Below, in pieces: positions 15,572-57,772 of a stretch of 64,000 bases of DNA (its first letter is position 1; each line of letters begins with the position of its first letter). The DNA is from Clitopilus passeckerianus (Eukaryota > Basidiomycota > Agaricomycetes > Agaricales > Entolomataceae), in assembly GCA_944990035.1 (NCBI GenBank), contig CALYLX010000158.1, positions 248,001 to 312,000 on the forward strand. The letters run 5' to 3'. Made by a program: the position numbers and the translations under genes. The notes under the pieces are model-generated. The model was given only the letters and a program-made list of their open reading frames with translations. It had not been told where the DNA came from and searched no databases.

Positions 15572-18500
15572 ATGGTGAGCGGTATGAACCGCGCTATTGC
15601 ATGAATCTGCTTATGATATCAATCTCAGGCGGATACGGAGCAACTTACCAGTCATGTATGAGTTCGAAATGAATTATTCAGTATTTCGTTTCTTTAATAT
15701 GATATTCGTTCGCAGAGATTGGAAGTATGTCAACTCAACCGGATACTGTCTGCGGTCAACCATTGACCACGCGTGGTTGAACACCCCACAGTTCGTGAGT
15801 GATGACGTTCTCTGAAAGAGATATTACACCTCAACATCTTATCTAATTATCTACATCAGGATGTACGTGGTTTCTTCAACGATGGTGGGGCCAGGATGAA
15901 GACGTCTTTGTGGTGGTTCTCAGTGGGTGCGTATGATCTCGTTGCACTACCACAACGGCTTTGCGAATATGATATACTCACTTGTATCGGCAGGCTGTAC
16001 GTAAGGGCATCAAGCAATTGTAATATACTGCCTGACTGGATGTACTATTGGCCCGTATTCAGAGAGTACGTGAGGCAAGAAATATTACCTATCCATTCGC
16101 TGATCTCCTCTTCAGAAAGTAGGTGGATCATCATCCAACGTTGTCAATTTGCTTGCTGATGTCTCTGCAGTTCGTAAGTGAATCATCCTGCGTCATCCAT
16201 TCACTGACTGAGCTCATCTTCAGGATGTAAGTGAATTGCTCAGTGACATCCATTCGCTTACTAGACTCGTCTTCAGAACGTAAGTGAATCATCCAACGTC
16301 GTCCGTTCGCTCGCTGATAGCACATTCACTGTTCAGGAAGTAAGTTGATCGTCCAACGACCTCAATTCGCTCGGTGATGGCGTCTTCAGGGAGTAAGTGA
16401 ATTATCCAGCGTCGTCCATTCGCTCGGTGATGGCGTCTTCAGGGGGTAAGTGAATCATCCAGCATTCTCAATTCGCTCCCTGATGGCGTATTCAGTTCGT
16501 AAGTGAATCATCTTGCAACGTCCATTCATTGACCGACCTCGTCTTCAGGGAGTAAGTGAATCGCTCAGCGACGTCCATTCCCTTGCTGACCTCGTCTTCA
16601 GTTGGTAAGTGAATCATCCAGCAATGGTGTCAATTCGCTCGCTGATCTCGTCTTTAGCTGGTAAGTGAATTATCCGGTATTTTGAATTCGCTCGCTGACG
16701 TCGTGTTTAGAATGTAAGTAAATTGTCCAGCGTTGTCCATTCGCTCGCTGACCTCGTCTTCAGAAAGTAAGTGAAATCATCCAGCATTGTCAATTCGCTC
16801 GCTGATGTCTTGTTCAGGAAGTAAGTAAATAATCAAGCGTTTTCCATTCGCTCGCTGACCCCGTCTTCAGAAAGTAAGTGAATCATCCGGCATTGTCAAT
16901 TAACTCGCTTATGGCTTCTTCAGGCGGTAAGTGACTCATCCCGCGTTATCCATGCACTGACTGATCTTGTCTTCAGGCAGTACGTGACTCGCTGATTGAC
17001 GTCTATTTGCTCACTGACCTCGTCTTCAGAAAGTAAGTAAATCATCCAGCATTGTCAATTCGCTCGCTAATCACGCCTTTAGCTAGTAAGTGAATCATCC
17101 GACATTGTCAATTCCCTCCCTGATGTCATCTTCAGATGGTAAGTGAATTATCCAGCGTCGTCCATTCGCTCGCTGACCTCGTCTTCAGTTCGTAAGTGAA
17201 TCATCCAGCAATGGTGTCAATTCGCTCGCTGATCTCGTCTTTAGCTGGTGAGTGAATTATCCGGCATTTTGAATTCGCTCGCTGATGTCGTGTTCAGGAA
17301 GTAAGTGGATCATCCGGCGTTGTTCATTCGTTCGCTAATCTCGCCTTTAGATGGCGAGTGAATCATCCAGCGTTGTCAATTACTTCGCTGATGTCACCAT
17401 CAGTTGGTAAGTGAACCGTCGAGCATCGTCAATTCGCTGGCTGATGTCGTCTAAAGATCGTAAGCGAAATCATCCGACGTCGTCCATTCGCTCGCTGATG
17501 GCGTCTTCAGGGGGTAAGTGAATCATCCAGCGTTGTCAATTAGCTGGCCCATGTCGTCCCCAGGAAGTAAGTGAATCATCCCGCGTTATCCATTCACTGA
17601 CTGAGCTCGCTTTCAGGTGGTACGTGTCTCCCTCAGTAACCTTCATTCGGTTACTGACCTCGGCTTCAGAAAGTAAGTGAATCATCCAGCGGTGTCAATT
17701 CACTCGCCCATGTCGTCTCCAGGAAGTAAGTAAATCATCCAGCGTTGTCCATTCACTGACTGATCTCGTCTTCAGGGAGTACGTGACTTGCTCAGTGACG
17801 TCCATTCGTTCGCTGACCTCGTCTTCAGAAAGTGAGTGAATCACCCAGCGTCGTTTATTCGCTCGCTAATTTCGCCTTTAGTTCGTAAGTGAATCATTCA
17901 GCGTTGTCAATTCGCTCGCTGATGTCGTCTACAGGTCGTAAGTGAATCACCCAGCGTCGTCAATTCGATCGCTGATGGCGACTTCAGGAAGTAAGTGAAT
18001 CACCCAGCGTCGTCAATTTGCTCGTTGACCTCGTCATCAGAAAGTAAGTGAATCATCCAGCGTTGTCCGTTCGCTCGCTAATCTCGTCTTCAGCCCGTAT
18101 GTGAATCATCCGCCATTGTCAATTGGCTTGCTGATGGCGTCTTCAGGCGGTAAGGGAATCATCCCGCGTTATCCATGCACTGACCGATCTCGTCTTCAGG
18201 AAGTACGTGGCTTGCTCAGTAACGTCCATTCGCTCGCTGACCTCATCTTTAGGAAGTAAGTGAATCATCTAGCATTGTCAATTCGCTCGCTGATCTCGTC
18301 TTTAGCTAGTAAGTGAATCATCCGACATTGCCAATTCCCTCCCTGATGTCATCTTCAGATGGTAAGTGAATTATCCAGCGCCGTCCATTCGCTCGCTGAT
18401 GTCGTCTTCAGAAAGTAGGTGAAGCGTCCAGCAATGGTGTCAATTCGCTCGCTGATCTCGTCTTTAGCTGGTGAGTGAATTATCCGGCATTTTGAATTCG

Positions 18501-21500
18501 CTCACTGACGTCGTGTTCAGAATGTAAGTAAATTATCCAGCGTTGTCCATTCGCTCGCTGACCTCGTCTTCAGAAAGTAAGTGAATCATCCAGCATTGTC
18601 AATTAACTCGCTGATCTCGTCTATAGGTAGTAAGTGAATCATCCAGCGTTGTCAATTCGCTCGCTGATGTCGTCTAAAGATCGTAAGCGAAATCATCCAG
18701 GGTTGGCAATTCGCTCGCTGATAGCGTCTTCAGGGAGTAAGTCAAGCATTCCGCGGTGTCCTTTCGCTGGCTAACCTCGTCTTCAGAAAGTAAGTCAATC
18801 ATCCCATGTTGTCAATTTGCTCGCCGATGTTGTCTTCAGTTCGTAAGTGAATCTTCCTGCGCCGCACATTCACTGACTGATCTGGTCTTCAGGGAGTAAG
18901 TCCATTGCTGAGTGACATCCATTCCCTCGTTGATGTTGTGTTCAGCAAGTAAGTAAATCGTCGAGCGTTTTTCATTCGCTCGGTGACGTCGTGTTCAGAA
19001 AGTAAGTGAATCGTCCAGCATTGTCAAATTTGCTCGCTGATCTCGTGTTTAGGTAGTAAGTGACTCATCTGGCGTCGTCGATTCACTCGCTGATGCGTCT
19101 TTAGTTCGTAAGTGAATCATTTGGCATCGTCGATTCACTCGCTGATCTCGTCTTCAGGAGGTAAGCAAATCATCCAGCATTGTCAATTCCCTAGCCGACG
19201 CCATCATTAGCAAGTAAGTGAATCCTCCAGCGTTGTCCATTCGCTCGCTAATTTCGTCTTCAGTGGGTAAGTGAGTCATCCAGCGTTGTCACTTAGCTCG
19301 CTGATGTCATCGCCAGATCGTAAGTGAATCATCCAGCGTTGTCCATTCACTGACTGAGCTCGTCTTCAGGGAGTACGTGACTTTCTCAGTGACGTCCATT
19401 CGTTCGCTGACCTCGTCTTCAGAAAGTGAGTGAATCATCCGGCGTCGTTTATTCGCTCGCTAATTTCGCCTTTAGTTCGTAAGTGAATCATTCAGCGTTG
19501 TTAATTTGCTTGCTAATGTCGTCTAAAGATCGTAAGTGAATCACCCAGAATCGTCAATTCGCTCCCTGATGTCGCCTTCAGGATGTAAGTGAATCACCCA
19601 GCGTTGTCAATTTGCTCGCTGATACCATCTCCAGGAAGTAAGTGAATCATCCGGCGTTATCCGTTCGCTCGCCGATTGCCTCTTCAGTTGGTAAGTGCAT
19701 CATCCAGCCTTGTGCATTCATTCTCCGATGTCGTCTTCAGGATGTAAGTGCATCATCCGGCGTTGTCACTTCGCTTGCTGATGTCGTCCTCAGTTGGTAA
19801 GTGAATCATCGGCTGTTATCAATTCGCTCGCTGACCTCGTCTTCAGAAAGTAAGTGAATCATCCAGCGTCGTCAATTCGCTCGCTGACCTCCTCTTCAGG
19901 ATGTAGGTGAATCATCCAGCCTTGTCAATTCACCTGCTAATCTCGTCTTCAGTGGGTAAGTGAATCATCCAGCCTTGTCATTTCGCTCGCTGATGTCACG
20001 TTCCAGGAGGTAAGTGAATCGTCCAGCGTTCTCAATTCGATCTCTGATGCTCTCTTCAGGAAGTAAGTAAGCCGCTTAGTGACATTCATTCGCTCGTTGA
20101 TGTCACCATCAGGAAGTAAGTGAACTTTCGAACATTGTCAATTCGCTCGCTGATGTTGCCTTCAGTTCGTAAGTGAATCACGCAGCGTTGTCAATTCGCG
20201 CACTGATGGCGCCTTCAGGAAGTAGGTGAATCATCTAGCGTTGTCGATTCGCTTGCTGATCTCCTCCTCAGTTGGTAAGTGGACCATCCACCATCATCAA
20301 TTCGCTCGCTGAACTCGTCTTCAGAAAGTAAGTGAATCATCCTGCGTCGTTAATTCGCTCGCTGATATCCTCTTCAGTTGGTAAGTGAATCACCCCGCGT
20401 TTTCCATTCACTGACTGATCTCATCTTCAGGAAGTAAGTGAATTACTCAGTGACCTCCATTCGCTCGCCGACCTCCTCCTCAGAAAGTAAACGAATCTGC
20501 CAGCGTTGACAATTCGCTCCTTAACCTTGTTTTCAGTTTGTAAGTGAATCGTCCAGGGTTGTCCATTTGCTCGCTGACCTCGTCTTCAGTTAGTAAGCGA
20601 ATCATCCAGGGTTGTCCATTTGCTCGCTGATGCCGCCTCCAGGAAGTCGGTGAATCATCCACCATTATAAATTCGCTCACTAATGAAATCTTCAGGAAGT
20701 AAGTAAATCATACAGCGTCGTCAATCTTCTCCCTGATGTCGTCTTCAGGATGTAAGTGACTCATCCAGTTGCATTCGTTCGCTACTGATCTCGTTCTAAG
20801 CGGGTAAGCTTGTTTATAATCTTCAACTATCCCTGTCAATGACATTTTGCGCTCTAGAGGGTGCGTACTTCCATTATATACTTTGCACATAATCCCAAAA
20901 TGCATTCCCTGATTTTCTGCTTTGAAGGTCGCCTATATGCAACGTATGTTTATGCCCCTTCTGAAATGTGGTTTGCCATTGAATCTCCTTAACCAAGTCA
21001 TCCACAACGCCATTGATGAGTACATTCACAACAACCTTCCGATATATCTCCTTACGCTTGAAGGCATGAAACTTGTCCGGAGGGGTGCTATCAAAGGCTA
21101 CATTGAAGGCGCTGTCGTCGCATTCATTAACGAGCTTTTACCGTCAAACAACCCCTTAGAGTGGGTTCATCTAACCGAGAATGATATCAAGGCGAGCACG
21201 GGGAAATGGATTACGGAGAGGACGGAATATGCAATTTTCTCTCATCGGTGGCTTGACATGGGCGAACTGACCTTCCAGGATGTATTGAAGATTGGGGAGC
21301 TTTCTGTAGAAGGAATTCGCAAGCTTTCCGAGGATCGCACAACGAAACGAACTGGAAGAGAGATACTGGACTTCTTAGCTAGTTACACTCGTACGGCCGA
21401 GGAAGCGGAGGATTCGGGGTTGCTGAAGGAAATGAAGGCATTCTGCGATGGGCTATCAGACAGCCAACGAGCCCGTTGCAAGGACCTTGTCAAGCTCGTC

Positions 21501-22556
21501 GAATTCTGCAACATTGCATCGCAGTATGGCTGCAGCTTTGTCTGGTTCGATACTGGTTGCATTGACAAGAGTAGGAGTGCCGAGCTCGAGGAGTCCATCA
21601 GATCGATGTTTAACTGGTACCGTGACGCCAAGATTTGCATAGTCCACCTCGCCGAGACCACCAGCGTTTTCACTTTCCAAAGTGATCCATGGTTCACAAG
21701 AGGTTGGACGCTGCAGGAGCTTTTGGCCCCCAAAAGAATCGTCTTCTTTGGGAAATCCTGGGGTCGTATCACCAGTAACAAAGAGGGGAATGACAAAGTC
21801 CTTGATGACGTCTTGAATATTCCTCTCTGGAAGACAATCTCCCAAGTTACAGGGATTGGCACCAATCAGCTTCTCAACTTTGCTGCTGGTATCGATCACG
21901 CCAGAGATGCTCTCACGTGGGTATCGAGAAGGCAGACTACCAGAATCGAGGACATGGCGTATTGCCTCATTGGCTTGTTACAAATTCCCATGACAATCGC
22001 GTACGGCGAAGGGGATATGGCATTTCATCGACTCCAGGCGGAGATTCTGCAGCGCAGCGGTGACATGGGCTTATTCGCTTGGACAGGACGCCCTTCCCCC
22101 TTCAATAGTATGCTCGCAGCCAATGCGGGTTGCTTTTCCCCTCTTCCACTACAGCCCCTCGTGATCAAGCCGGCGAAGGACACAAATTTTACCTGGGACC
22201 AAGCCTGCTCTACCGATCAGGCTTTACGGCTTACCAACCAGGGATTGCGGATTCCGTTGGTGGTTTATAACGCAGGCATTCGGAATCAGAGAAGCGCCGA
22301 ATACCAATCCGGGATGGCGGAATCTTGTTTGGGATTGACAGGACTGAACCAGGAAGTCACTGTGGTGTCCGAGAATTTGGGGGGTTATCATCATCTAGGG
22401 GTCGCCGTTCTAACCGGGGTGGCCGACGAATCGCGTACCCTGGCTATCTTGCTCGGTATGCAAGGAAATCGCTGCACAAGGGTCCCGACTAAAGAACACA
22501 TCATGCTATCTCCTATCCCGAAAACGAAGAAGTCCGCCGTCAGATTCATCGAGTGA
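15572..22556 (+). CDS. HET-domain protein 1, about 100 exons with one-codon microexon array
   Basis: Proposed structure: exon 1 is only ATG (15572-15574) before GTGAGC. Exon 2 (15629-15655) encodes ADTEQLTSH and exon 3 (15716-15724) encodes RLE. Then come 95 exons of exactly 3 nt, the first at 15792, 15860, 15924, 15994, 16063 and 16116 and the last at 20801 and about 20858. A 16-nt exon (20928-20943) and the terminal exon 20998-22556 follow. Predicted product 632 residues. The terminal exon carries the HET domain: YAIFSHRW (191-198), VWFDTGCIDKS (from 295), DPWFTRGWTLQELLAPKR (near 343-360), then ARDALTWVSRRQTTRIEDMA and the AYGEGDMAFHRLQ region. HET domains trigger incompatibility cell death in ascomycetes; the role in basidiomycetes is not established. 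Microexon residues 14-108 are about 43% charged. A conventional annotation would start inside the terminal exon and lose the N-terminus. Confidence 0.85.
16066..20927 (+). repeat. HET1 tandem intron/one-codon exon array (53-bp units)
   Basis: About 90 tandem units of roughly 53 bp: a 50-nt intron plus 3 nt. Consensus intron start GTAAGTGAATCATCCAGC, then a variable TTGTCAATT/CCATT middle, GCTCGCTGAT (branch site) and TCGTCTTCAG or CTTTAG. Between the AG and the next GT there are always three bases (commonly gaa, aaa, ttc, gga, gat, ttg, ctg). From exon AAA (16116) to CGG (20801) the mean intron length is 50.2 nt. Units are diverged, so this is not a simple microsatellite. Higher-order duplication is visible: the order cta, atg, then aaa or ttc, then ctg recurs at about 17090-17240 and 18300-18470. 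Donor, branch and acceptor positions stay constant. Confidence 0.9.
20928..20943 (+). other. Invariant 16-nt frame-restoring exon of HET1
   Basis: Flanked by an AG acceptor and a GTATGT donor. It encodes VAYMQ plus the first base of a Leu codon completed by the terminal exon at 20998. Exons of the same 16-nt length and phase stand at the same place in HET2 (34798), HET3 (42281), HET4 (50500) and HET5 (56129). Confidence 0.85.
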
Positions 22557-30962: not shown

Positions 30963-33900
30963 ATGGTGAGTGGTATGAACAGCTATTGTCCATTCGCTGG
31001 CTGATGTCATCTTCAGGACGTAAGTGAACCATCCAGTCTTGTCCATTCGCTTGCTGATCTCGCCTTCAGTTCGTGAGTGGATCATCCAGTCCCGTCTATT
31101 CACTCCCTAATCTACTCTTTAGCATGTAAGTGAATCATCCGGTCCCGTCCCTTTGCTCGCTGACCTCGCCTCAGGATGTAAGTGGATCATCCAGCATCGT
31201 CCATTCCCTCGCTGATTTCGTCTTCAGAGCGTAAGTGAACCATCCAGTCTTGTTCATTCCCTCGCTGATCCCTTCTTCAGGTCGTAAGTGAATCATTCGA
31301 TCTCATCTATTCACTCTCTGATCTCGTCGCAGATCGTAAGTGAATCATCCAGCCTCGTCCGTTCGTTCCCTGATCTTGTCTGTTCGCTCCCAGGCAGTAA
31401 GTGAATCATCCAGTTTCGTCCATTCGCTCTCTGATCTCGTCTTCAGGGCGTAAGTGAACCATCCTGTCTCGTCCATCCGCTCGCTGATCTCGTCGTCAGG
31501 GCGTAAGTGAACCATCCTGTCTCGTCCATCCGCTCGCTGATCTCGTCTTCAGCGAGTAAGTGAACCATCCAGTATCGTCCGTCCGCTCGCTGACCTCGCC
31601 TCAGGATGTAAGTGAATCATCCAGCCTCGTCCATTCACTCCTTGATCTTGTCTCAGATCGTAAGTGAATCATCCAGTCTCGTCCATTCGCTCGCTGGATC
31701 TCGTCTCAGACCGTAAGCAAATCATCCCCTCTCATCCATTCGCTCTCTGATCGCGTCATCAGCATGTGAGTGGACCATCCAGTCTCGTCCATCTGCTCGC
31801 TGACCTCATCTCAGCATGTGAGTGAATCCTCCAGTCTTGTCCCTTCGCTCGCTTATCTCGTCTCAGATCGTAAGTGAACCATCCAGTCTCGTCCATCCGC
31901 TCGCTGATCTCGTCTTCAGGGAGTAAGTGAACCATCCAGTCTCGTCCATCCGCTCACTGATCTCCTCTTCAGGGAGTAAGTGAACCATCCAGTCTCGTCC
32001 ATCCGCTCGCTGATCTCGCCTCAGACCGTAAGTGAACCATCCAGTCTCGTCCATCCGCTCGCTGATCTCGCCTCAGACCGTAAGTGAACCATCCAGTCTC
32101 GTCCATCCGCTCGCTGATCTCGTCTCAGATCGTAAGTGAACCATCCAGTCTCGTCCATCCGCTCGCTGATCTCGTCTCAGATCGTAAGTGAACCATCCAG
32201 TCTCGTCCATCCGCTCGCTGATCTCGTCTTCAGAACGTAAGCAAATCATCCCCTCTCATCCATTCGCTCTCTAATCGCGTCATCAGCATGTGAGTGGACC
32301 ATCCAGTCTCGTCCATCTGCTCGCTGACCTCATCTCAGATCGTAAGTGAATCCTCCAGTCTTGTCCCTTCGCTCGCTTATCTCGTCTTCAGGGAGTAAGT
32401 GAACCATCCAGTCTCGTCCATCCGCTCGCTGATCTCGTCTTCAGTCAGTAAGTGAATCCTCCAGTCTCGCCCTTTCGCTCGCAAATATCGGCTTCAGGAT
32501 GTAAGTCGATGATCGAGTGTTGTTGATGCGCTCGCTGATCTCTTCTTTAGAGAGTAAGTCGATCATCGAGTGTAGTTGATGCACTCGCTGACCTCTTCTT
32601 TAGAGAGTAAGTGAATCTTCCGCAGTTGCCCATTTGCTCGCTGACCCCATCTTTAGTGGGTAAGTGAATCATCCATTGTCATCCCTTTACTCGCTGACCT
32701 TGGTTTTAGGAAGTAAGTCAACCCTCCACTGTCGTCTGTTCACTTGCTGACCTCAGCTTTAGGAAGTAAGTGAATTCTGCCGTGTCGTTCATGCGCTAGT
32801 TAATTCGATCTTCAGAGAGTAAGTCAATCATCCAATATCGTCCCTTTGCTCGCTCACCTTCGCTTTAGGAAGTAAGTGAAAGCTCCACTGTCGTGCATTG
32901 CTCGCTGATCTCGCCTTTAGGAAGTAAGTGAATTCTTCCGTGTTGTTCATGCCCTCGCCGATCCCATCCTCAGAGAGTAAGTGAATGGTCCACAGTCGTC
33001 CATTTCCTCGCTGAGCTAGGCTTTAGGTAGTCAGTGAATTATCCCGCGTTGTTCATGCCCTCGCTAATCCCATTTGCAGAGAGTAAGTGAAACCTCCACT
33101 GTTGTTTATTTGTCCGCTGATCTCGGCTTTAGGAAGTAAGTGAACTATCCACTGTCGTTGATGCGCTCACTGATCCCGTCTCCAGATGGTAAGTGAATTC
33201 TCCAGTGTTGTTCATGCGTTCACTAACCCCGTCTCCAGAAGGTGAGTGAATCTTCCGCAGTCTTCTATTCTATCGCTCATCTAGCGTTTAGGAAGTACGT
33301 CAATCCTCCGCTATGGTCCATGCGCCCGCTGATCCCATTTTTAGAGAGTAAGCGAATCCTCCACTATCGTCAATTTACTTGCTAATGTCGACTTTAGGAA
33401 GTAAGTGAATCCTCCACTATTGTTCACGCGCTCGCTGATCCCATTTTCAGATAGTAAGTGAATCTTCGACAGTTGTCCATTTACCCGCTGATCTAGGCTT
33501 TAGGAAGTATGTGAATCCTCCACTGTCGTTCATGCGCTCGTTGATTTCATTTTCAGACAGTAGGTGAATACTCCAATGTTGTTCATGCGCTCGCTGATCT
33601 CGGCTTTAGAAAGTCAGTGAATCGTTCACTGTAGTTCATGTGCTCCCTGACCTCCTCTTCAGATTGTAAGTGAAGCCTTCAGTGTCGTTCGTGCGCTCGC
33701 TAACCCGATCTTCAGAGAGTAAGTGAAACCTCCACTGTCGTGCATTGCTTGCTGATCTCGTCTTTAGGAAGTACATGGATCCGCCACTCTCGTCTATTTG
33801 CTCGCTGATCTCGGCTTTAGGAAGTAAGTGAATCATCCCGTGTTGTTCATGAGCTTGCTGATCCCATCTTCAGAGAGTAAGTGAATCCTTCAATTTTGTC

Positions 33901-36502
33901 CATTTCCTCGCTGACCTTAGCTTTAGGAAGTAAGTGAACCATCCACTGTCGTCTATTTGGCCCCTGATTTGGGCTTTAGGAAGTAAGCGAATCCTGTACT
34001 GTCGTTCATACGCTCGCTGATCCGATCTTCAGAGAGCAAGTGAATCCTCCACTGTTCACCATTTGCTCGCTGATCTCGGATTTAGGAAGTAAGAGAATCT
34101 TCCACTTTCGTTCATGCGCTCGCTGATCCGATCTTCAGAGAGTAAGCGAATCCTCCACTGTTGTCCATTTGCTCGCTGATCTAGGCCTCAGGAAGTATGT
34201 GAATCCTCCACTGTCGTTCATGCCCTCACTGATCTCTTCTTTTCAGATGGCAAGTGAATGCTCCATCGTCGTTCATGTGCTCCCTGATCTCTTCATCAGA
34301 TGGTAAGTGAACCCTCCGGTGCCGTTCATGCGCTCGCCGATCCCATCTCTAGATAGCAAGTGAATCCTCCATCGTTGTCTATTTACTCGCTGATATCGCC
34401 TCTAGGAAGTGAGTGGAACCTTCAATGTCGCCCATTTGCTCGCTGATCTTGACTTTAGGAAGTAAGTAAATCATCCACTGTCGTCTATTTGCTCCCTGAT
34501 CCGGGCTTTAGGAAGTAAGTGAAGCCTCTGCTGTTCTTCATGCGCTCGCTGATCCGATCTTCAGAGAGTAAGTGAATCATCCAATGTCGCCCATTCGCGC
34601 GCTGATCCGGGCCTTAGGAAGTAAGTGAACCCTCCGCCGTTGTTCATGCGCCGCTGATCTCCTCTTCAGCGGGTAAGTTTGCTCATATTCTTCACTTATC
34701 CCTGTCGATGGCTTGTTTGTGCTCTAGAGGGTATGTATCTCGATTATCCATTTCACATATTATCCCAAATTCCATTCCTCAATTCTATGCTTTCAAGGCC
34801 GCCCATTCAAGAAGTATGTTTATCTCTCCCCGGTGGAATGTGAATTGCCATTAAATCCCCCAACCAAGTCATCCTGAATGTCGTTGATGAACACATTCAC
34901 AACCAACTTCCGATATATCTTCTGGAGCTTGAGGGCATGAAACTCGTCCGGAGGGCCACTGTTAAAGGCTACATTGAAGGCGCCATCGTCGAGTTCATTG
35001 ACACACTTTTACCTTTTCATGACCCCTCAAGGTGGTACGATCTACCCGGAGATGATATTAGGGCTAGTACGAGGAAATGGATTAAGGAGAAGACGGCATA
35101 TGCAATTTTCTCCCATCGGTGGCTTGGCATGGGCGAATTAACCTACCAGGAGGTATCGAAGATCGGGGAGCTTTCCGTTGAAGAATTTCAGAAGCTTGCG
35201 GACGATCAAACCACGGAACGAACTGGTAAACAGATTCTGGACTTCTTATTGAGTTCCCCCTCTCCGGCCAAGGAGGCGGAGAAGAATCCTGGGCTATTGA
35301 GGGTGATGAAGACATTCTGCGACAACCTATCAGACAACCAACGAGCCCGTTGCCAGGATCTTATCAAGCTTGTTGAATTCTGCAACATGGCATCGCAGTA
35401 CGACTGCAAATATGTCTGGTTCGATACCGGCTGTATCGATAAGAGTAGGAGTGCCGAGCTCGAGGAGTCCATCAGATCGATGTTTAGCTGGTACCGAGAC
35501 GCCAAGATTTGTATCGTCCACCTCGCCGAGACCACCAGTCTTGATACCTTCGAGCGTGACCCATGGTTCACAAGGGGTTGGACGCTGCAGGAGCTCTTGG
35601 CTCCGAAAAGAATAATCTTCTTTGGGAAAGACTGGGAACGTGTCACCAGTAACACGGAGGGAAATGACAAAGTCCCTGATGACGTCTTGCGTATTCCTCT
35701 CTGGGAGACAACTTCCAAGGTCACAGGGATCGACACCACTCAGCTTCTCAACTTTGCTGCTGGTATCGATCACGCCAGAGATGCTCTCACGTGGGTATCG
35801 AAAAGACAAACTACCCGAATCGAGGACATGGCGTATTGCCTTATCGGTTTGTTACAGATCCCCATGTCGATCGCATATGGCGAAGGGGATATGGCATTCC
35901 ATCGGCTCCAGGTGGAGATCCTGCAGCGTAGCGGCGACATGGGTTTATTTGCTTGGACAGGACACTCTTCCCCCTTCAATAGTATGCTCGCAGCCAATGC
36001 GGGCTGCTTTTCCTCTCTCCCGCTACGCCCCCTCATAACCGAGCCACAGAAGGACACAAAATTTGCCTGGGACACACCCCAACCTATCGATCGGGCTTAT
36101 ATGCTTACAAACAAGGGACTGCGAATTTCTCTGGTGGTTTATGGTGCAGACATTCGAAACCAGAGAAGGGTCTCGATGACTTATTACAAACATACTGCAC
36201 ATGTTTCTGATTATCGCTCAGCCACTGGGACTCGAGGGGGCCTCGAACCCGACACAAAGGTGGTGGAATTTCGGTTGCGGTTACCGGAGCTCAAGCAGGA
36301 AATTACTGTGGTGTCGGGGAATTTGGCAGGTTATCATCATCTAGGGATTGCCGTTCTCGACGGGTTGGCCGATGAATCAGGTACTTTGGCTATCTTGCTC
36401 GGTATCCGCGGAAATCACTGTACGAGGATCCCGACTTTGGAACACATCGTGCTATCTCCTATCCGGAAAATGAAGAAGCCTCTCATCAGGTTCATCGAGT
36501 GA
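30963..36502 (+). CDS. HET-domain protein 2, about 74 exons with one-codon microexon array
   Basis: ATG-only first exon (30963-30965), 71 three-nucleotide exons (first GAC before 31021, last CGG at 34670 and AGG near 34728), a 16-nt exon (34798-34813) encoding AAHSR plus one base, and the terminal exon 34869-36502. Predicted 621 residues. HET motifs: YAIFSHRW (155-162), YVWFDTGCIDKS, DPWFTRGWTLQELLAPKR, then the conserved IEDMAYCLIGLLQIPMSIAY block. None of the 71 codons is a stop. The last 43 array residues are about 79% charged, almost only Glu and Arg (for example EERVREMKEREIETK), like a single charged helix. The early part is different (Ile, Gly, His, Thr). Relative to the paralogues it has an insertion near 36170-36250 (TYYKHTAHVSDYRSATG). 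The ADTEQ exons of HET1/HET4 are absent. Confidence 0.85.
30966..34797 (+). repeat. HET2 tandem intron/one-codon exon array, two sub-arrays
   Basis: 70 introns from ATG to CGG with a mean length of 50.0 nt. Two unit families abut near 32480-32520. The first (30966-32500) is highly homogenised with cagtctcgtccatccgctcg middles; several adjacent units are nearly identical (31860-32220). The second (32500-34670) uses gttcatgcgctcgctgatc middles and alternates acceptors ...TTTAG before gaa with ...TTCAG before aga, which produces the Glu/Arg pattern. Three donors here are GC rather than GT (34036, 34250, 34356). Confidence 0.9.
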
Positions 36503-41190: not shown

Positions 41191-43913
41191 ATGGTGAGTG
41201 GGATGTATTACACTTATCCACTCGCTGGCTGATCTCATCTTCAGCCCGTAAGTGAATCATCCAGCCTTGTCTATTCGCTCTCTGATCTTAACTTCAGCCT
41301 GTAAGTGAATCATCCAGCCTCATCTCTTTACTCGCCGATCTCGCCTCCAGCCAGTAAGTGAATCGTCCAGTCTTATCTCTTCACTCGCCGATCCAGTCTT
41401 CAGAGAGTAAGTGAATTCTCGAGCCTTGTCTATTTGCTTGCTGATCTCTTCTTCAGATGGTAAGTAAATCATCCAGTCTCCTCTATTCGTTCGCTGATCT
41501 CGTCTTCAGTTGGTAAGTGAATCATCCAGCCTCGTCCATTCACTCGCTGATCTCGCCTTCAGTTGGTAAGTGAATCATCCACTGTTGTTCATTCACTCAC
41601 TGATCTCGTCTTCAGAGCGCAAGTGGATCATACAGCGTTGTCCTTTCGGCTCCTGACCTCGTCTTCAGCGAGTAAGTGACCCATCCACTCTGGTACATTC
41701 GCTCTCCGATCTCGTCTCAGGCAGTAAGTGAATCATCCAGCGTCGTCAGTTCGCTTGCTCGACACCTAATCTCGCCTTCAGGACGTAAGTGATTCATCTA
41801 GTCTCGTCCATCCACTCGCCGATCTCTTCTTTAGGAGGTAAGTGGATTATTCAGCCTTATGCATCCGCTCTCTGATCTCGTCTTCAGCAAGTGAGTGAAT
41901 CATCTAGTGTCGTCCATTCGCCCTCTGATCTCGTCTGTAGCGAGTGAGTGAATCATCCAGTCTTGTCCATTCGCTGTCTGATCTCGTCTTTAGAAAGTAA
42001 GTGAACCATTCAATGCCGTCCATTTTCTCACTGATCTCGTCTTCAGCGAGTAAGTAAATTATCCAGCCTCGCCCATTCACTCTCTGATCTCGCCTTCAGG
42101 AAGTAAGTGAATCATCCAGAGTAGTCCATTCGCTCGCTGATCTCGTCTTCAGCTGGTAAGTCATAGTACAGAGCTTTTTAATCCATGCTGACGTCCTTTC
42201 TTCGTGCTCCAGCGGGTAGGTACTTTATTCTCCACTTGACATGATATCATCAAACACACTCCGTCATTTCTGCTTCCCAGGCTTCCCATTCAGCCAGTAT
42301 GTTTGTTATGCCTTGGAGCAAAATTGAACTACCATTGATCTTCCTTGACCGAAGCCATCCATTATGTCATTTATGAGTATATTCACAATCACCTTCCGAT
42401 ATATCTTCTTCGCCTCGAAGACATGGAGCTGGTTGGGAGGGACAATGTTCAAGGCTATGTCAAATACCCTGTCGTGCGGTTCATTGACGAGCTTTTGCCT
42501 TATACGTACCCCTCAATGTGGATTAATCGAACCGAGGAACAGATTAGGACTAGTGCGAAGATATGGATCCGCGAGCAGATGGCATATGCAATTTTCTCTC
42601 ATCGCTGGCTTGAGATGGGGGAGTTGACCCTCCAGGACGTATCAAAACTTGCGGGACTCACCGTAGAAGGATTCCAGAAGTCGGTCGAGGATGGCGAAAC
42701 CAAACGAACTGGTAGAGATATCTTGGACTTAGCTACTAGGCGCACTTTCACGAACAAGCAGGGTTCGGGGTTGCTGAAGGGAATGAAGAAATTCTGCGAT
42801 GGGCTTTCCCCCGACCAGCGGATGCATTGCCAGGATCTTGTCAAGCTTGTCGAATTCTGCAACGTGGCGTCGCAATACGGCTGCAAATATGTCTGGTTCG
42901 ACACTGGCTGTATTGATAAAAGTAAGAGAGACGAGCTTGAGGAGTCCATCAGATCGATGTTCAATTGGTACCGAGACGCCAAGATTTGCATAGTTCATCT
43001 CGCCGAGAGCACTAACCCTCGGGATTTGCCCAGAGATCCATGGTTTACGAGGGGTTGGACGCTGCAAGAGCTCTTGGCTCCGAAAAGAATCCTCTTTTTT
43101 GGGAAATCTTGGGATCGTATCACCACGAACACGAAGGAAAATGACAAGGTCTCTGACGCCGTCATGGCTCAAGGCATTCCTCTCTGGAAGACGATCTCCG
43201 AAGTTACGGGGATTGACACCAAGCAGCTTCTCCACTTTGATGCTGGCATCGCTCACGCCAGGGATGCTCTCACATGGATATCGAGAAGACAAACCAAAAG
43301 GACGGAGGACATGGCATATTGTCTCGCCGGTTTGTTAAAGATCCCCATGTCAGTTGCGTATGGCGAAGGGGATACTGCATTCCATCGGCTACAGGTGGAG
43401 ATTCTGCAGCGCAGTGGCGATATGGGCTTGTTCGCTTGGACAGGACCCTCTTCCTCCCTCCACAGTATGCTCGCAGCCAACGCGGGTTGCTTTTCCCCAC
43501 TACCGTTTCAGCCCCTTGCCACCGAGCCAACAAAGGACCCGACCTTTTCCTGGAACCAACCCCGCCTTGTCGATCGAGCGCATGTGCTCACGAATAAAGG
43601 GCTACGAATTTCTCTGGTGGTTTATAATGCAGAAATTCGGAGCCAGGAAAACGTCAAATCGTCCCTGGTGAAATACCGGTTGAGATTGACGGAGTTACAC
43701 CAGAGAGTCACCATAGTGTCGTCTGACTCAGATTTGGGCCGTTATCATTACCTCGGGATCGCCGTTCTCCCCGAGTTGGCCGACAACTCAGGTACTTTGG
43801 CCATCTTGCTCGGTATGCATGGAAATCGCTGCACGCGGATCCCGACTCAAAAGCATATCGTGCTATCTCCCATCCCGACAGCTGGGGAATCCTTCATCAG
43901 GTTCATCGAATGA
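41191..43913 (+). CDS. HET-domain protein 3, about 22 exons with one-codon microexon array
   Basis: ATG-only exon 41191-41193, then 19 three-nucleotide exons spelling PPPRMLLSRADEQRKRELR, the 16-nt exon 42281-42296 (ASHSA plus one base), and the terminal exon 42355-43913. Predicted 544 residues. HET motifs: YAIFSHRW (103-110), YVWFDTGCIDKS, DPWFTRGWTLQELLAPKR. It differs from the others by VSDAVMAQGIPLW and by HFDAGIAHARDALTWISRRQ. One microexon (AGC at 41616) is followed by a GC donor. No codon in the array is a stop. The short array makes this the easiest copy to check by cDNA, together with HET5. Confidence 0.87.
41194..42280 (+). repeat. HET3 tandem intron/one-codon exon array
   Basis: Eighteen introns from ATG to CTG (42153-42155), mean 50.4 nt, of the GTAAGTGAATCATCCAGC...CTCGCTGATCTCGTCTTCAG type, then two longer non-repeated introns around CGG (near 42215) and up to 42280. 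One unit near 41740-41780 is longer, with an inserted cgacacct. Confidence 0.9.
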
Positions 43914-48496: not shown

Positions 48497-51400
48497 ATGG
48501 TGAGTGTCTCTAACGCTTCCATGAACTATACCACCATGTGATATGATATCTATCCCAGGCAGATACGGAGCAACCTACCAGTCATGTACGAGTTATTCGG
48601 TACATTCAAGTCGTTGCTTTAATCTAACACTCGTTTGCAGCGAATGGAAGTATGTCTCTAGTTTCACAATCTAAAAAAAAACATAGACTGCATTACCTGA
48701 CGACCCAACAGTTCGTGAGTGATGACCACCTCTGAACGGAAGATGTCTGCTCACCATTTCTATTGGTCATGTACGCCAGATTGTAAGTAACGCCTCGGAC
48801 GCAATAAACATTGAAATAAAGAGGCTGATGTCGCGGCTCTTAGTGGGTGTGTGTAATCTTGGTTTAAAATCGCAATGGCGCTCACCTGTAGCGGCAGAAC
48901 GTGCGTACGGTCCTTAAGGAAACCGACTGACTTGACGAACCATTCGAACGCATTCAGAGAGTACGTACAGCGACCAACTTCAATCCATATACGCATTCGC
49001 TAACTCCGACACCTTCAATAGGAAGTAAGTGAATCATTCAGTACCAAGCAACCCCTCGCCGATTCCGTCTTCAGAGAGTAAGTAACCACCCAATTCAATC
49101 TATTCGCTCACTAAGTAACTTCATCTCAAGCCCGTAAGTAATTCTCCCAGTTTCGTCCACTCGCCTGATCTCGTCTCCAGAGCGTACGTTCAACATCTTA
49201 TGATGCCTTTTCACTCGCTGGTCTCTGATCTATGTAATCCTCAGGGTGTAAGTGAACGTACTAATTTCACCTTTTTCGCTCGTTCATTCCACTTTCAGGA
49301 CGTAATTGGCTCACCTGGGAAGGCATATTCACTCGCTCAGTTCTTTTTTCCCAGAGAGTAAGCCCGTCACTCAGCATTTTGCAATCCCATCCTCTCCCCG
49401 ATCTCACTGACATCTTCAGACTGTAAGTAAACCATCCTGCACCAGTAGTTCATCGCTGACCTCGCCTTCAGAAAGTAAATGCTCATTTGATATCACCCGT
49501 TCACTTGCTAATCTTGGGTTTTCAGGACGTAAGTGCCCCCGTTAGGACCCCCTCATTCATTCCCTTGCTGATATAGCCTCAGAGAGTAAGTAGTCAAATC
49601 TCAAACCCCATCATCCCGGATCCAATTTCGCTTCATTTACCCACTGATTTTACTCTTAGAGAGTAAGCGACAATCCCGTAAAACCCTTCCTAATCGATTC
49701 GCTGATCTTGATTTCAGGAAGTAAGCCATTCGGTCTCATTTAATTTCTGTTTTGCGCTGAGCTTGTCCTCAGAGAGTACGTGTCAAGCGGTTCTATCGAC
49801 CCACTCTCACCCGCATTCACCTTGCTAATCTCATCCTCAGCTCGTAAGCAAAACATCCAACTCGAGTCCCGACCATCCCTTAGTTGATTCTGATCGCCTT
49901 TGCAGGACGTAAGTACCGAACCTCTCATCCGCATCTCTCCACTCGCTCGCTCGCTGATCTCGTCTCCAGAAAGTAAGCTTGCTGTCTAGTTTAATCTATT
50001 CGCTTGCTGATCCTGTCTTCTTCAGCTCGTAAGTGATCAATAACCTGCTAAGGCTCCTCCAACCCGCTTCTTTATCTCATATTCGTATTCAGCTCGTAAG
50101 TAGTTCATCCAGTTTCATTCATTCGCTCCTGATAATTTCGTCTCTAGAGAGTGAGTAAACACACTCCGTAAAACTCGTCGGCTGGCTGATGTTTGGTTTC
50201 AGGAAGTAAGTGACTCGTCGAGTTCGGTCTATATCCTCGCTGATTCCGGGTTCAGGAAGTAAGCAAATTACGCTCCTGTAATTTTGTTCATTCCTCGACC
50301 TGATTTCATCTGGTCTTTAGGGCGTAAGTTATTTATCCCAAGTTTCGTCCCGTTTGCTCATTGATTTTGTTGGTAGCTTGTAAGTGAAATATCTAGCGTC
50401 GTGTATAACCTCACGTTATCTCTCTTGACGCGTTTCCTTCTTCCTCCAGAGGGTACGTACCTCAATCATGCTTGTTTCAGACTGTGACCCGCTCCCAAGG
50501 CGCCCTACATCCAAAGTACGTCTCCTCACCCTCCAAAACCCAAACCAACCTCAGCTCAACCCCTCTAACCAAAAGTCATCCACAACGTCATCGATGAACA
50601 CATCCAAAACCGCCTCCCAATCTACCTTCTCAACCTCCAAAACATGCACCTCCTCCGCCGAAGTTCCATCAAATTACACCTCTCGAACTCCATCAATACC
50701 TTCATCGACCGCTTGTTACCTTTTGATCAAGATATGAAATGGATTAACCAAACTGAGGATGAGGTTCGAGCTGCGGCGGCGAGATGGATCACGGAGGAGA
50801 CGGGTTATGCGATTTTCTCGCATCGGTGGCTCGCGATGGGGGAATTGACGTTTCAAGATGTGTTGAAGATTGGAGAGATTCCTGTGGAGGGGTTTCGGGA
50901 ATTGAGTGAGGAGATTATGAAGGAACGGTGCGAATGGAGTGGGAGAGAGATGGTGGAGTGGTTATGTGCGCGTGGTGGTGAACTTTCGAATGCTGGCTCC
51001 ACCCCAAAGACCAGGGAGGAAGAGAATCCTGCGGGGCTCGGGCTACTGAGCGAGATAAAAACATTCTGTGACGGCCTCTCCTACCCCCAACGACGCCACT
51101 GCCAGGACCTAGTCAAGCTAATCGAATTCTGTACTATCGCCTCCCAATGCGGGTGTAAACTCGCGTGGCTCGATACAGGGTGCATCGACAAAAGTCGAAG
51201 TGCGGAGCTGGAGGAGTCGATTAGGTCGATGTTCAACTGGTATCGGGACGCTAAGATCTGCATCGTACACCTCGCGGAGACGACCACCCCTAGGACTTTC
51301 GAGAGTGATCCGTGGTTCACTAGGGGATGGACGTTGCAGGAGCTTCTGGCTCCGAGGAGGATTCTTTTCTTTGGGAAGACTTGGGGTCGTATCACGCCCA

Positions 51401-52203
51401 ACATGGATACGAACACGAACACGGAGGGAAACGATAAAGTCCCCGATGAAGTGCTGGGTATCCCGCTCTGGGAGACGATCTCTCAGGTTACGGGGATCGA
51501 GACGAGGGAGCTTCTGGATTTTGATGCTGGTATTGAGCATGCGAGGGATGCTCTTGGTTGGGTATCGAAGAGGTCAACCACTAGGGTTGAGGATATGGCG
51601 TATTGCTTGATTGGGTTGTTGCAGATACCGATGTCGGTTGCGTATGGGGAGGGGAGTATGGCATTTCATCGGTTGCAGGTGGAGATTCTGCAGCGGAGTG
51701 GGGATATGGGGGTGTTCGCATGGACGGGCAGGGGTTCGTCCTTCAATAGTATGCTCGCGGCGAATGCGGGATGCTTTCGCCCTCTTCCCCTACAACCCCT
51801 TGTCACTGAACCACAGACGGAGAGCACTTTCTCCTGGGATCAAGCTCAGTCTACCGATCAGGCGTATGTGCTCAGGAACAAAGGGCTCCGGATTTCCTTG
51901 CCCGTGTATGGCGCGTACATTCGTAGCCAAGAAGTCATCAAAGAGGGACCCAACTCGGGTATGGTTCGAACTCATCTTGGGCTGGTGGACATGGATCAGG
52001 AAGTTATTGTGGTGTCGGGGGAGTTGGGAGGGTATCGACATCTTGGGATCGCTGTTTTGACTGGGGTGGCTGATGAAGAACGGAATTTGGCTATTTTGCT
52101 TGGGATGAAGGGGGATTGTTGCGTAAGGATCCCGACGCGAGAGTATATCGTGCTGTCTCCTATCCAGAGAATGAAGCAGCCCGTTACTAGGTTTATCAAT
52201 TAG
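48497..52203 (+). CDS. HET-domain protein 4, about 35 exons, diverged one-codon exon array
   Basis: Exon 1 is ATG (48497-48499). Exon 2 (48559-48585) encodes ADTEQPTSH and exon 3 (48641-48649) encodes RME. Then 30 three-nucleotide exons follow, the first being TTC 48712, ATT 48780, TGG 48844, AAC 48898, AGA 48958 and GAA 49022, and the last AGG at 50450. The array begins FIWNRERPSG and ends DKLLREEGLR. The 16-nt exon 50500-50515 (APYIQ plus one base) and the terminal exon 50576-52203 complete a 590-residue product. HET motifs: YAIFSHRW (126-133), LAWLDTGCIDKS (here Leu for Phe), DPWFTRGWTLQELLAPRR. It has longer inserts at CARGGELSNAGSTPKTREEE and MDTNTNTEG. Codon use in the terminal exon is more G/C-ending early on and differs from its paralogues. 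The array introns are no longer obviously repeats, so this looks like the oldest copy. Confidence 0.83.
48715..50499 (+). repeat. HET4 one-codon exon array with diverged introns
   Basis: From GAA (49022) to AGG (50450) there are 24 introns with a mean of about 56 nt, longer and more varied than the 50-nt introns in the other arrays. The GTAAGT-type donor, CTGAT/CTAAT branch site and CAG/TAG acceptor stay in place, and the exons remain exactly 3 nt. The first introns (48715-49021) are not repeat-like at all. Confidence 0.82.
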
Positions 52204-52680: not shown

Positions 52681-54338
52681 ATGCATCCTTGCTTAGCTAT
52701 TCCGGAAATACGTTTGGCACTCGCACGGTCGTTACAGGAAGGGTTGGAGTGGCGTCGCTATTATGGCGAGAACTCGCGCACTCTTGTAGCTTTGGCTCTG
52801 ACCTGCCGATCTTTTCAAGGTCAGAAATTTTCAGACGCAGCCTTTGCCGAGAAAGCGAGCCCTGAACTTGTTCATAGAGCCGGCTCTCAATGCCCTTTGG
52901 GAATTGCAATCTAGCCTATCACCCCTTGTGCGAGTCATGCCCGGCGACCTCTGGAGCTTCGAAGATGGACAAACCAAGGATATAGTCGTGAGCCTTGCAA
53001 CCTTGTCTCCCCGAATAACCGCTGATGACATAAATGCAGTGTTTTACGAGGCACCTCACGGAGAATGACTGGGATAGATTCGATGCATATAGTGCCAAAA
53101 TCCGAACTCTTCATCTCTGGACCGGTGATACTTTTGGCGTCGATGAGACACTACTTCGTCAATTATCGACCTTCCGCCCAACAAGGCACCTACTGCCACG
53201 ACTGCGGACACTCATTCTAATTGTGGCAGGTGAAGATACATACTATCCTTGCATAGAATGCTTGCCAATTTTCCTGGGAAAATCTCTTACGGAGCTTCGA
53301 ATCGAGGCTGAGGATTATCTCGGCCCCGACTCTATCAGCGACTTCGACGAACCTCTCTACAGTGTTGAGGATCTTTCATCCGCGAAAAGAATTTGCCCCA
53401 ATCTGCACACTTTAATCATCCCTTACCTCATCCCAAGACCGGTGGACGATCCGAGGGAGGCATTCGCCTTGGAGTCTTTCCTCTGCGGTTTCAAGAATAT
53501 CCGATACCTTGGCTTCAGCCTCCAGAACGCCACACCCAGTATAATGCGGAAAATAGGAAAACTCCCCAATCTATCGCGCCTTGACATTGGCAATGTTCCT
53601 GATAGTAGCTGGGCATCACTACACTCAGATTCGGAGCACCCTGTTTCAAGTTTCACGGCGGCCTCCTTTTCCGACGCGTTCAGGGGGCTCATATCCTTGG
53701 AAGCATGTAACTTTGGGGCAAACGATCTCAAGACCACGCTTAACCACGCACCGATCACCCTCCAGTCCTTCCACGCCTACAGTTCGTATGGTTCTGTCCA
53801 TTTGAAAGAACTGGTCGACCCTCTCCAGCGTTTCACCGACTTGACGTCTCTATTGCTCCGTTACGACGAATTCGATTTCCACTCAGTAAAACAAGGATCC
53901 GCCTTGCTCGCGCCCATCTTATCTCTCCGGAACCTTCGCAATGCTCGACTGATGGGTTTCCCAACGAAACTCTTGACAGATGTCTTTTTATGTCGTATTT
54001 CGGACGCCTGGCCGCGCTTGGAATCGCTCGAATTGAAACCTCGCGGTGAAAGGAAAACGCAGATGACCCTGAAGGGCTTGGTCCCAATCTCACAGAAGTG
54101 TATGGCGTTGACGGAGCTTGATATCATCGTCCTCGCCCGACCGTTTCGGACAGAGGAGATTGAGTTTGGTGGCAGAGTCAGCGTCCTCCAGCGGCTGGAC
54201 CTTGATAGCTCACCGGTGGAGGAGCCTTTGGAAGTACTACGCTGTATTCAGATCCTTTTCCCTAGACTATGGGAGGCTCATGCTTGGGAGGCAGGACTCG
54301 GCGATGCATTACAAGAAGTGTATTCATGGCCATATTGA
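52681..54338 (+). CDS. F-box-like / leucine-rich-repeat protein 3
   Basis: Three exons: 52681-52819, 52878-52987, 53040-54338, giving 515 residues. Introns are 58 and 52 nt (donors GTCAGA and GTGAGC) in the same phases and positions as the paralogues at 4565 and 8902. Starts MHPCLAIPEIRLALARSLQE. The F-box-like part (LVALALTCRSFQEPALNALW, MPGDLW) leads into CFTRHLTENDWDRF and an LRR-like region ending with the SSPVEEPLEVLRCIQILFPR block. Likely an SCF substrate receptor with unknown target. It is placed between two HET genes, 42 kb away from its paralogues. Confidence 0.85.
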
Positions 54339-55469: not shown

Positions 55470-57772
55470 ATGGTGGGTATTATGAACAGCCCTCGTCCAT
55501 TTGCTCTCTGATCTCGTCTTCAGCTCGTAAGTGAATTATACAGCCTCATCCATAAGTTCCCTGACCTCGACTTCAGGCAGTAAGTGAATTATCCACTCTC
55601 GTCCATTTGCTCGCTGATCTGGTCTTCAGCGGGTGAGTGAATCATTCAGTGTCGTCCATTAGTTCCCTGACCGGTACCTCGTCTTCAGGCGGTAAGTGAA
55701 TCATCCAGTCTCGTCCATTTGCTCGCTGATCCGGTCTTCAGCGGGTAAGTGAACCGTCCAGCCTCATCCATTCGTTTCCTGACCTCGTCTTCAGGCAGTA
55801 AGTCAATCGTCCAGTCTCGTTCATTCGCTCGCTGATCTCGTCTTCAGGCAGTGAGTGAATCATCCAGTCTCATCCTTTCGCTCGCTGATCTTGTCTTCAG
55901 GAGGTAAGTACATCATCCAGCGTCGTCCATTTCCTCACTGATCTCGTCTTCAGAAAGTAAGTGAATCATCCAGGCTCGTCCACTCGCTCGTTCGCTGATC
56001 TTGTCTTCAGAAAGTAAGTCATATTACAGAATCCTTTAATCCATGTTGATGGCCTTTCTTTGTGCTGTAGCGGGTAGGCACTTTGATTATCCACTTGGCA
56101 TGCTCATTCCCACACTTCTGCTTACCAGGCCTCCTACTCAGAAAGTACGTTTTTATCCTTTGGAACAGAAATGAACTACCATTGAACGTCCTTGACCGAA
56201 GTTATCCGCAATGTCATCGACGAGTACATTCAAAACCAACTTCCGATATATCTCCTTCAGCTGGATGGTATGAAACTGGTCCGGAGGGGCGCTGTCAAAG
56301 GCTACGTTCAAGAAGCCATTGCCGAGCTTTTACCTTCTAATAGCATCTCATGGGGGCGTCTAGCCGAGAAAGATATCAGGGCTAGTGCGGTCGAATGGAT
56401 CACGAAGGAGACGGGATATGCAATTTTTTCTCATCGGTGGCTTGACACGGGCGAATTGACCTTTCAGGACATGTTGAAGCTCGGAGAGATTTCCGTTGAA
56501 GGATTGCAGCAGCTTGCGGAAGATTGGACCACAGAACGAACCGGTCGGGAGATCCTGGACTTCTTAGTTGATTCCACGTTTACAGCCAAGAAGGAGGAAG
56601 AGAAATCGGGGTTGCTGAGGGCGCTGACGACGTTCTGTGATGGGTTATCCTACAACCAACAAGCGCGTTGCCAGGGCCTTATCAAGCTCCTCAAATTCTG
56701 CAACATGGCATCGCAGTATGGCTGCAAATTTGCCTGGTTCGATACTGGCTGCATCGATAAGAGTAGCAGTGCCGAGCTCGAAGAGTCCATCCGATCAATG
56801 TTTAAGTGGTACTGTGAAGCTAAGATTTGCATAGTTCACCTCGCCGAGACCACCACGTGTTTTGATTCCGCTCGAACCGTCGTTTGGGAGAGCTTCGAAC
56901 GAGATCCATGGTTCACGAGGGGTTGGACGCTGCAGGAGCTCTTGGCTCCTAAAAGAATCATCTTCTTTGGGAATGGCTGGGGTCGTCTCACCAGCAACAC
57001 GGAGGGGAACGACAAGGTCTCTGATGACGTCTTGGGTATCCCTCTCTGGGAGACAATCTCCCTCGTTACAGGGATCGACACCGATCAGCTCCTCAACTTT
57101 ACTGCTGGCATCGATCACGCCAGAGACGCCCTCACATGGGTATCGAAAAGGCAAACCACCAGAATCGAGGACATGGCATATTGCCTTATCGGTTTGTTAC
57201 AGATCCCCATGTCTATCGCATACGGCGAAGGGACTATGGCATTCCATCGGCTCCAGGCGGAGATCTTGCAGCGTAGTGGAGACACGGGCTTATTCGCATG
57301 GACAGGACACCCTTCCCCCTTCAATAGTATGCTTGCAGCCAATCCAGGTTGCTTTTCCCCTCTTCCGCTCCAGCCAGTAACGACCGAGCCAGAGAGAGAC
57401 CCAGAATTCACCTGGGACAAAGCACCCTCTCGCGATCGGGCTGCTACTATGCTTACGAATGAGGGGTTGCAGATTCCCTTGGCGGTTTACAGCGCGACGA
57501 TTATGAGTCAGAGCGAGGTCGACTTCGAATTAGGGACGGTGGAATCTCGGTTGGGGCTGTTGGACCAGGAAATTATCGTTGTGACCAAGAATTTGGATGG
57601 TTATCATCATCTAGGGGTAGCCGTTCTCCCCAGGTTGGCTGACGACTCACGTACTTTGGCTATCTTGCTCGGTATCCGCGGAAATCGGTGCACAAGGGTC
57701 CCGACTCAAGAGCACATCGTGCTATCTCCTATTCCGACCAAGAAGCAGCCCGTTACTTGGTTCATCGAGTGA
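55470..57772 (+). CDS. HET-domain protein 5, about 14 exons with short one-codon exon array
   Basis: ATG-only exon 55470-55472, then 11 three-nucleotide exons (CTC 55524 first; AAA 56011 and CGG 56071 last) spelling LARARAAEKKR, the 16-nt exon 56129-56144 (ASYSE plus one base) and the terminal exon 56202-57772. Predicted 540 residues. HET motifs: YAIFSHRW (90-97), FAWFDTGCIDKS, DPWFTRGWTLQELLAPKR. It is five residues shorter than the others before the first motif, and carries an insertion CFDSARTVVWESFE before DPWF. It has CEAK for the RDAK seen in the paralogues. No stop occurs in the array, and the frame is restored exactly by the 16-nt exon. Confidence 0.88.
55473..56128 (+). repeat. HET5 tandem intron/one-codon exon array (shortest)
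   Basis: Ten regular introns of about 50 nt from ATG to AAA (56011), then two longer non-repeated introns (56014-56070 and 56074-56128). Exons in order: ctc, gca, cgg, gcg, cgg, gca, gca, gag, aaa, aaa, cgg. Confidence 0.9.

Follow-up and report, generated by a model that had tools for sequence, protein, structure and literature searches.

The HET genes and their codon-sized exons

The window analysed here, a stretch of 64,000 nucleotides from the agaric Clitopilus passeckerianus (C155:248001-312000; C34, C36, C97, C106, C155 and C157 are contigs of the one genome analysed, an assembly of 64.8 Mb in 160 contigs), carries on its plus strand five genes, HET1 to HET5, each of which consists of an ATG, an array of 3-nt exons, a 16-nt exon and a long exon encoding a HET domain. 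The internal 3-nt exons number 95 in HET1, 71 in HET2, 19 in HET3, 30 in HET4 and 11 in HET5, giving 226, all in phase 0, and the genes contain 99, 73, 21, 34 and 13 introns, respectively, i.e. 240 introns of 47-74 nt. In all five the array precedes the HET exon, on the N-terminal side of the protein, the 16-nt exon joins the two, and the gene model is open from the ATG to its only stop codon, with which the HET exon (518-543 codons) ends. A preliminary description of this DNA had given the same exon counts and coordinates, the 99 introns of HET1 and a frame running through the 16-nt exon into the HET exon of every gene, all of which were reproduced; its account of the introns as GT-type fits 235 of the 240, the remaining five (one in HET1, three in HET2 and one in HET3) starting with GC. 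It has to be noted that only the five window genes have models finished by hand: the position-specific scan described below found 210 of the 226 exons, and the few window exons that it missed (the leader, the last ones and two in HET4) were placed by sequence.

The start codon of HET1 (15572..15574, all coordinates being plus-strand positions in the window) stands before a donor GTGAGC and is followed by a leader at 15629..15724, which is near-identical in HET4 and is made up of exons of 27 nt (15629-15655, ADTEQLTSH) and 9 nt (15716-15724, RLE). The HET1 array then extends over 15792..20860, mostly in 53-bp units with introns of 50 nt, with the linking 16-nt exon at 20928..20943 and the HET-domain exon at 20998..22556 (PF06985, 7.2e-9). 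HET2 starts at 30963..30965, has its array at 31017..34730 and its 16-nt exon at 34798..34813, and ends with the HET-domain exon at 34869..36502; the corresponding positions in HET3 are 41191..41193, 41245..42215, 42281..42296 and 42355..43913. In HET4 the start codon (48497..48499) precedes leader exons at 48559..48649, again of 27 nt (48559-48585) and 9 nt (48641-48649), and an array at 48712..50452 with diverged introns of 47-74 nt, which goes unreported by Tandem Repeats Finder and shares conserved codons with the gene C106c; the 16-nt and HET-domain exons follow at 50500..50515 and 50576..52203. HET5, the shortest, starts at 55470..55472 before a donor GTGGGT, followed by its array (55524..56073), 16-nt exon (56129..56144) and HET-domain exon (56202..57772). 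When scanned directly, all five HET exons, including that of HET5, exceed the Pfam cut-off for PF06985; HET is the only Pfam domain that they contain, NACHT-ANK being absent.

Extent of the family

The five genes that the preliminary description had taken for the family do lie in the window; as a count of the family the number was too low. A genome-wide scan for the Pfam HET domain found 18 places, with HET5 missed, and the assembly holds at least 19 HET genes, on C34, C36, C97, C106, C155 and C157. All 19 have an array of one-codon exons upstream, in 20 clusters, two of which lie upstream of the gene C97a. Units of 53 bp predominate on C155 and C106, units of 69 bp on C34, C36, C97 and C157, and in four genes (HET4, C106c, C97b and C157c) the one-codon exons are separated by diverged introns of uneven length.

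A strict pattern of three successive donors occurs 180 times in the assembly and never in a reversed control, and all 180 matches fall within the examined HET loci, so that none lies elsewhere; the pattern is strict enough to miss all arrays of C97 and C157, and diverged arrays outside HET loci could escape it. Exact copies of two 15-base intron heads are likewise found only inside HET arrays (43 of 43 and 64 of 64), which indicates that these introns do not form a dispersed family.

Exon length and splice signals

The position-specific scan yielded 753 junctions in the 20 clusters, with four positions passing the same cut-off on the antisense strand; as it presupposes exons of 3 nt, it is no test of their length. 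Three other approaches bear on length directly. Strong donors with a branch-like site and a YAG upstream number 344 in eight regions, and 334 of them stand exactly 3 nt after the YAG, versus none of the 12 such donors in the antisense control. Where the pattern GTAAGT-intron-YAG-exon-GTAAGT was allowed exon lengths of 0-12, 251 of 256 matches had a length of 3. Finally, a chain model in which donors and acceptors were scored separately, with exons of up to 45 nt and no length prior, gave 654 exons of 3 nt among 685 in 17 of the 19 genes; it produced no chain for HET2 or C97b, and 6 of its 17 models reach the HET exon unaided with phase 0 open throughout, the last exon or exons being misplaced in the other 11.

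Among the 753 junctions, donors are GT in 745 and GC in eight, acceptors are AG in 751, and a CTRAY motif lies upstream of 426, compared with 14.6% at random positions. Of the 20 clusters, 15 were regular enough for a comparison, and in these the diversity within the array is lower at the donors than in the intron interiors in all 15 and lower at the acceptors in 14, C36b being the exception. As exons, AAG and CAG are avoided and nearly absent (two and one of the 753 triplets), and GAG is tolerated (34); the ratios AAA:AAG and CAA:CAG are 63:2 and 26:1 in microexons versus 181:236 and 126:212 in 17 HET exons. AAG and CAG exons would create a second strong acceptor.

Reading frame and codon conservation

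None of the 753 triplets is a stop codon, whereas within-array shuffles contain 42.7 stops on average (34.1 for TAA and TGA alone); 425 triplets are one change away from a stop, and 58 of the 61 sense codons are in use. In the two shifted frames of the joined exons of all clusters, 25 and 42 stops occur in 733. When each distinct triplet is counted once per array, the 20 clusters hold 301 triplets, again without a stop, against a shuffle mean of 12.9, and none of 2000 shuffles reaches zero. In the window the claim of stop-free microexons stands (0 of 226): for the 210 found by the scan, column shuffles within arrays give a mean of 9.5 stops and a minimum of 1 in 5000 shuffles, and reading the joined exons in the two remaining frames brings up 18 and 11 stops in 205. 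Taken by itself, the window gives a weak test once only its 83 distinct triplets are counted, 5.6% of shuffles then reaching zero. The cleanest test is provided by the 53-bp arrays (0 of 307 versus 13.1 expected), since their introns, mostly of 50 nt, cannot be read through in frame.

A second line of evidence comes from diverged gene copies. HET4 and C106c can be compared over 24 of the 30 HET4 microexons, of which 22 are identical and two differ synonymously, beside introns that are 8.2% diverged; for C97b and C157c, 34 microexons comprise 31 identical and three synonymous ones, beside introns at 10.1%. Taken together, the 58 microexons of these two pairs are identical in 53 cases and synonymous in five, with no replacement: codon positions 1 and 2 changed at 0 of 116 sites versus 326 of 3463 (9.4%) in the introns (p 2e-5), and position 3 changed at 5 of 58, a rate like that of the introns. 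In a third pair, C97a and C157a, the 27 codons nearest the HET exon, a run picked by eye, comprise 26 identical ones and one synonymous difference (CGA/AGA, at position 1), while the 47 well-aligned codons of the array, left after the exclusion of 34 of 81 with a flank identity below 0.8, comprise 37 identical, two synonymous and eight replacement codons. We regard the replacement-free codons of the two diverged pairs as the strongest evidence that the arrays are translated, and, judged from these alignments, purifying selection on codons is evident in HET4 and C97b and, for C97a, in the part of the array next to the HET exon. Together with the stop-free phase 0 they lend support to the proposal, put forward in the preliminary description, that each exon is one translated codon, and coding by one-codon exons is very likely on this evidence.

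A start of translation within the HET exon itself, with the array serving as a 5' leader that regulates expression, would fit the nine genes on C34, C36, C97 and C157, in all of which the HET exon has ATG as its first full codon. That codon is isoleucine in the five window genes, where an in-frame ATG lies ahead of the array, and the conservation of array codons likewise speaks against such a start, which we consider most improbable.

Variability of the arrays and probable alleles

In the 15 comparable clusters, the fraction of unit pairs that differ at the codon site is 0.22-0.80, as a rule above 0.5, and intron interiors differ by 0.07-0.37; in C36b, intron interiors that are less than 7% different stand beside codons of eight types. 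Linkage between a codon and its neighbouring introns, in seven arrays, is weak or absent (C34a, preceding intron, 0.088 vs 0.102, p 0.003; HET2, preceding intron, 0.248 vs 0.285, 0 of 300 shuffles), so that a plain history of units copied whole is insufficient.

The tandem structure and the turnover of units are what one would expect of a non-coding minisatellite inside one large intron, in which repeat homogenisation alone would keep the splice sites. Phase 0 is, however, free of stops, two gene pairs are free of replacements beside diverged introns, and within arrays the codon sites are mostly more diverse than the introns yet never become a stop; an array of this non-coding kind is therefore very unlikely.

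Probable alleles show how far the arrays may change. C34 and C36 probably represent two haplotypes, since the gene lying upstream of C34a has a single close copy, 92% identical, next to C36b. The assembly as a whole seems to hold two haplotypes in part: the RPB2 family has two near-equal matches, on C19 and C111, and two other places (C127 and C66) without such a partner. The HET exons of C34a and C36b share 94% protein identity; their arrays have 50 and 40 units, and the order of codons aligns no better than in shuffles (z 1.7). Intron divergence between the two arrays is 9.0%, compared with 9.7% within C34a and 6.6% within C36b. Both fast codon change by selection and the reshuffling of a few founder units fit this difference. 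For C155 and C106 an allelic relationship is unestablished, their flanks matching only piecewise at 66-80%. For part of the family, hypervariability is well supported.

A model of the arrays and its difficulties

We consider it probable that these are coding genes whose N-terminus is encoded one codon per exon, with introns removed singly, and that the array forms a fast-evolving tract of a HET protein of nonself recognition; the splicing of the arrays and the nonself function are parts of this model that we infer from the DNA. The short introns (47-74 nt in the window) would be recognised singly by intron definition and excised one by one, each excision adding one codon to the growing exon. 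As every unit exon is 3 nt long and in phase 0, a skipped unit would leave the frame intact. Purifying selection keeps the codons in place in old genes such as HET4 and C97b, and in C97a close to the HET exon; elsewhere the unit of intron and codon may act like a minisatellite, with gain and loss of units and quick codon change, which would make probable alleles differ in the length and sequence of the tract. Most likely, the array would give the HET protein a quickly evolving N-terminal stretch, largely charged, through which its choice of partners or its assembly is tuned in nonself recognition; this is the weakest step of the model. Published accounts relate the HET domain to TIR and assign it to cell death, and only 4 of 132 HET genes of Podospora are known incompatibility genes in the part of that account available (PMC10890737), which makes a nonself role here plausible only.

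More tentatively, a minisatellite read by the spliceosome might be the hypervariable region of an allorecognition family, a reading to which we give somewhat less than even weight: codons would be gained, lost and rewritten between alleles, the choice of splicing would add a further layer, and the frame would be kept. If this is true, a protein tract can change residue by residue with its frame never shifting. A less likely alternative is programmed alternative splicing, in which transcripts would include some of the units and one gene would give rise to a large pool of in-frame N-termini. The units are indeed 3 nt long and in phase 0, splice sites within an array are much alike, and the available parts of the reports on the truffle nank genes (PMC4986451, PMC9815663, PMC10197012, PMC3689799) describe that precedent so. 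The DNA, however, fits full inclusion equally well, and the codon conservation of HET4 and C97b argues for the usual inclusion of those units.

Several observations weigh against the coding model or narrow its reach. A general third-position preference for A over G explains part of the deficit in AAG and CAG exons, only part of which is specific: with the 17 HET exons as reference, the shift in A:G odds is about 40-fold for lysine and glutamine, 6-fold for glutamate and from less than 1 to about 13-fold in control families. Over all 81 aligned codons of C97a and C157a, the first part of which is poorly aligned, 38 are identical, five synonymous and 38 replaced. HET5 and C106d have four identical, two synonymous and four replaced codons of ten, with codon sites differing at 12 of 30 positions versus 49 of 423 in introns (p 1.6e-4). 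The evidence of purifying selection from the pairs compared covers two pairs and part of a third and does not extend to HET1-HET3. Amphipathic-helix periodicity of the encoded tracts at 100 degrees is not above that of shuffles (the best of 13 angles and two residue sets reaches z 2.5, at 120). Counted from the start of the exon, the open frame is only 168, 227 and 400 aa long in the HET exons of C34b, C97a and C106e; these three of the 19 look like either broken copies or exons interrupted by extra introns.

The 69-bp arrays present a further difficulty. In these, only four stops in 436 turn up when the joined exons are read in frame +1, and many of the 66-nt introns are open in phase 0, which weakens the stop test there. 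In C34a, 46 of the 49 introns with a length divisible by three are open, and its array (4085-7588 of its locus) contains in-frame open reading frames (ORFs) of 540 and 511 aa, so that intron retention would, from the DNA, often preserve the frame; long ORFs are also present on the antisense strand of this array. It is formally possible that 69-bp units are translated unspliced as 23-residue repeats, which for the window's 53-bp arrays is impossible, the unit not being a multiple of three. This reading is barely credible even for the 69-bp units, as introns divisible by three are open in only 16 of 31 cases in the array C97.2 and 33 of 55 in C157.1, other introns are not divisible by three, and the donors stay conserved.

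The encoded tract, homologues and neighbouring sequences

The tracts encoded by the arrays are rich in E (21.5%), R (15.1%) and K (8.6%) compared with the HET exons (6.6, 6.9 and 4.8%); that of C36a is an exception, being G- and P-rich. The closest relative of the HET4 model among the matches listed is a protein of Flammula alnicola (49%); an RPB2 query matches Lyophyllum atratum and Arthromyces matolae best (96%), and both results point to an agaric host. In every one of the best 120 of 3166 database homologues the coverage of the spliced HET4 query is at most 92%, and the N-termini of such genes may escape ordinary gene prediction. Among solved structures no match was better than E 1.6, NCBIfam gave none for three proteins, and a protein search with the open 69-bp array found one weak match, to a protein of the leucine-rich repeat (LRR) type. 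A pattern search of a genome contig collection returned 22 matches, of which two loci of one deltaproteobacterial metagenome-assembled genome encode a relative; in a viral contig collection, none of 12 matches does. The relatives of the agaric HET protein encoded on contigs of this genome have 39-45% identity, through contamination or transfer.

Interspersed among the HET genes of the window are three mutually similar ORFs of 434-452 aa (4918-6234, 9180-10538 and 53034-54338). One of the three has a weak LRR match, below the Pfam cut-off, and the one at 53034-54338 has a further copy on C155, at 78% identity. A short GGGAT tandem repeat of 6.6 copies lies at 58946-58978.

Comparison with known systems

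The preliminary description knew of no comparable gene, a claim that the truffle overturns. For nank of Tuber melanosporum (NACHT-ANK/NLR), the available parts of four reports (PMC4986451, PMC9815663, PMC10197012, PMC3689799), citing Iotti et al. 2012, mention codon-sized exons of 3 bp that are alternatively spliced and number in the tens or dozens. The two systems have in common, as far as these accounts go, tens of 3-nt exons and membership of a fungal family that has expanded and has a link to nonself recognition. They differ in that nank genes encode ascomycete NACHT-ANK NLRs, whose exons are said to vary the C-terminal recognition domain, whereas the present genes belong to an agaric, encode HET-domain proteins and have their exons, 11 to 95 per window gene, at the N-terminus.

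Other systems are more distant. The micro-exon genes (MEGs) of Schistosoma, which encode secreted proteins, also string together very small exons, whose lengths are mostly divisible by three; in the part of the source available (PMC10526429) these measure 6-81 bp (3-81 in the abstract), mostly 15 bp, with 10-20 short exons per gene and introns of 0.1-5 kb, unlike the 3-nt unit exons and introns of about 50-70 nt (47-74 nt for the 240 window introns) found here. Bh of het-B in Podospora, as far as that account describes it (PMC10890737), shares with the present genes a HET domain and diverged alleles (here probable alleles); its alleles have a single exon with the HET domain N-terminal, whereas here a microexon tract lies ahead of the domain. 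Fungal introner-like elements, as described in part of that literature, are many similar short introns inserted into many genes, in contrast to the intron heads tested here, which are confined to HET arrays. Plant microexons and a single microexon of Trichoderma differ, in the parts of those reports available, in size or scale.

Among the papers listed in the literature searches, largely without subscription papers, there is no array of this kind in a HET gene or a basidiomycete. Codon-sized exon arrays have thus already been described in the truffle, and what is new is their occurrence in HET genes, at the N-terminus and in another phylum. Such arrays severely test the spliceosome's handling of serial 3-nt exons. 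They now extend to a second fungal phylum and to another family with links to nonself recognition, an extension that suggests a convergent use of splicing for fast-changing protein segments.

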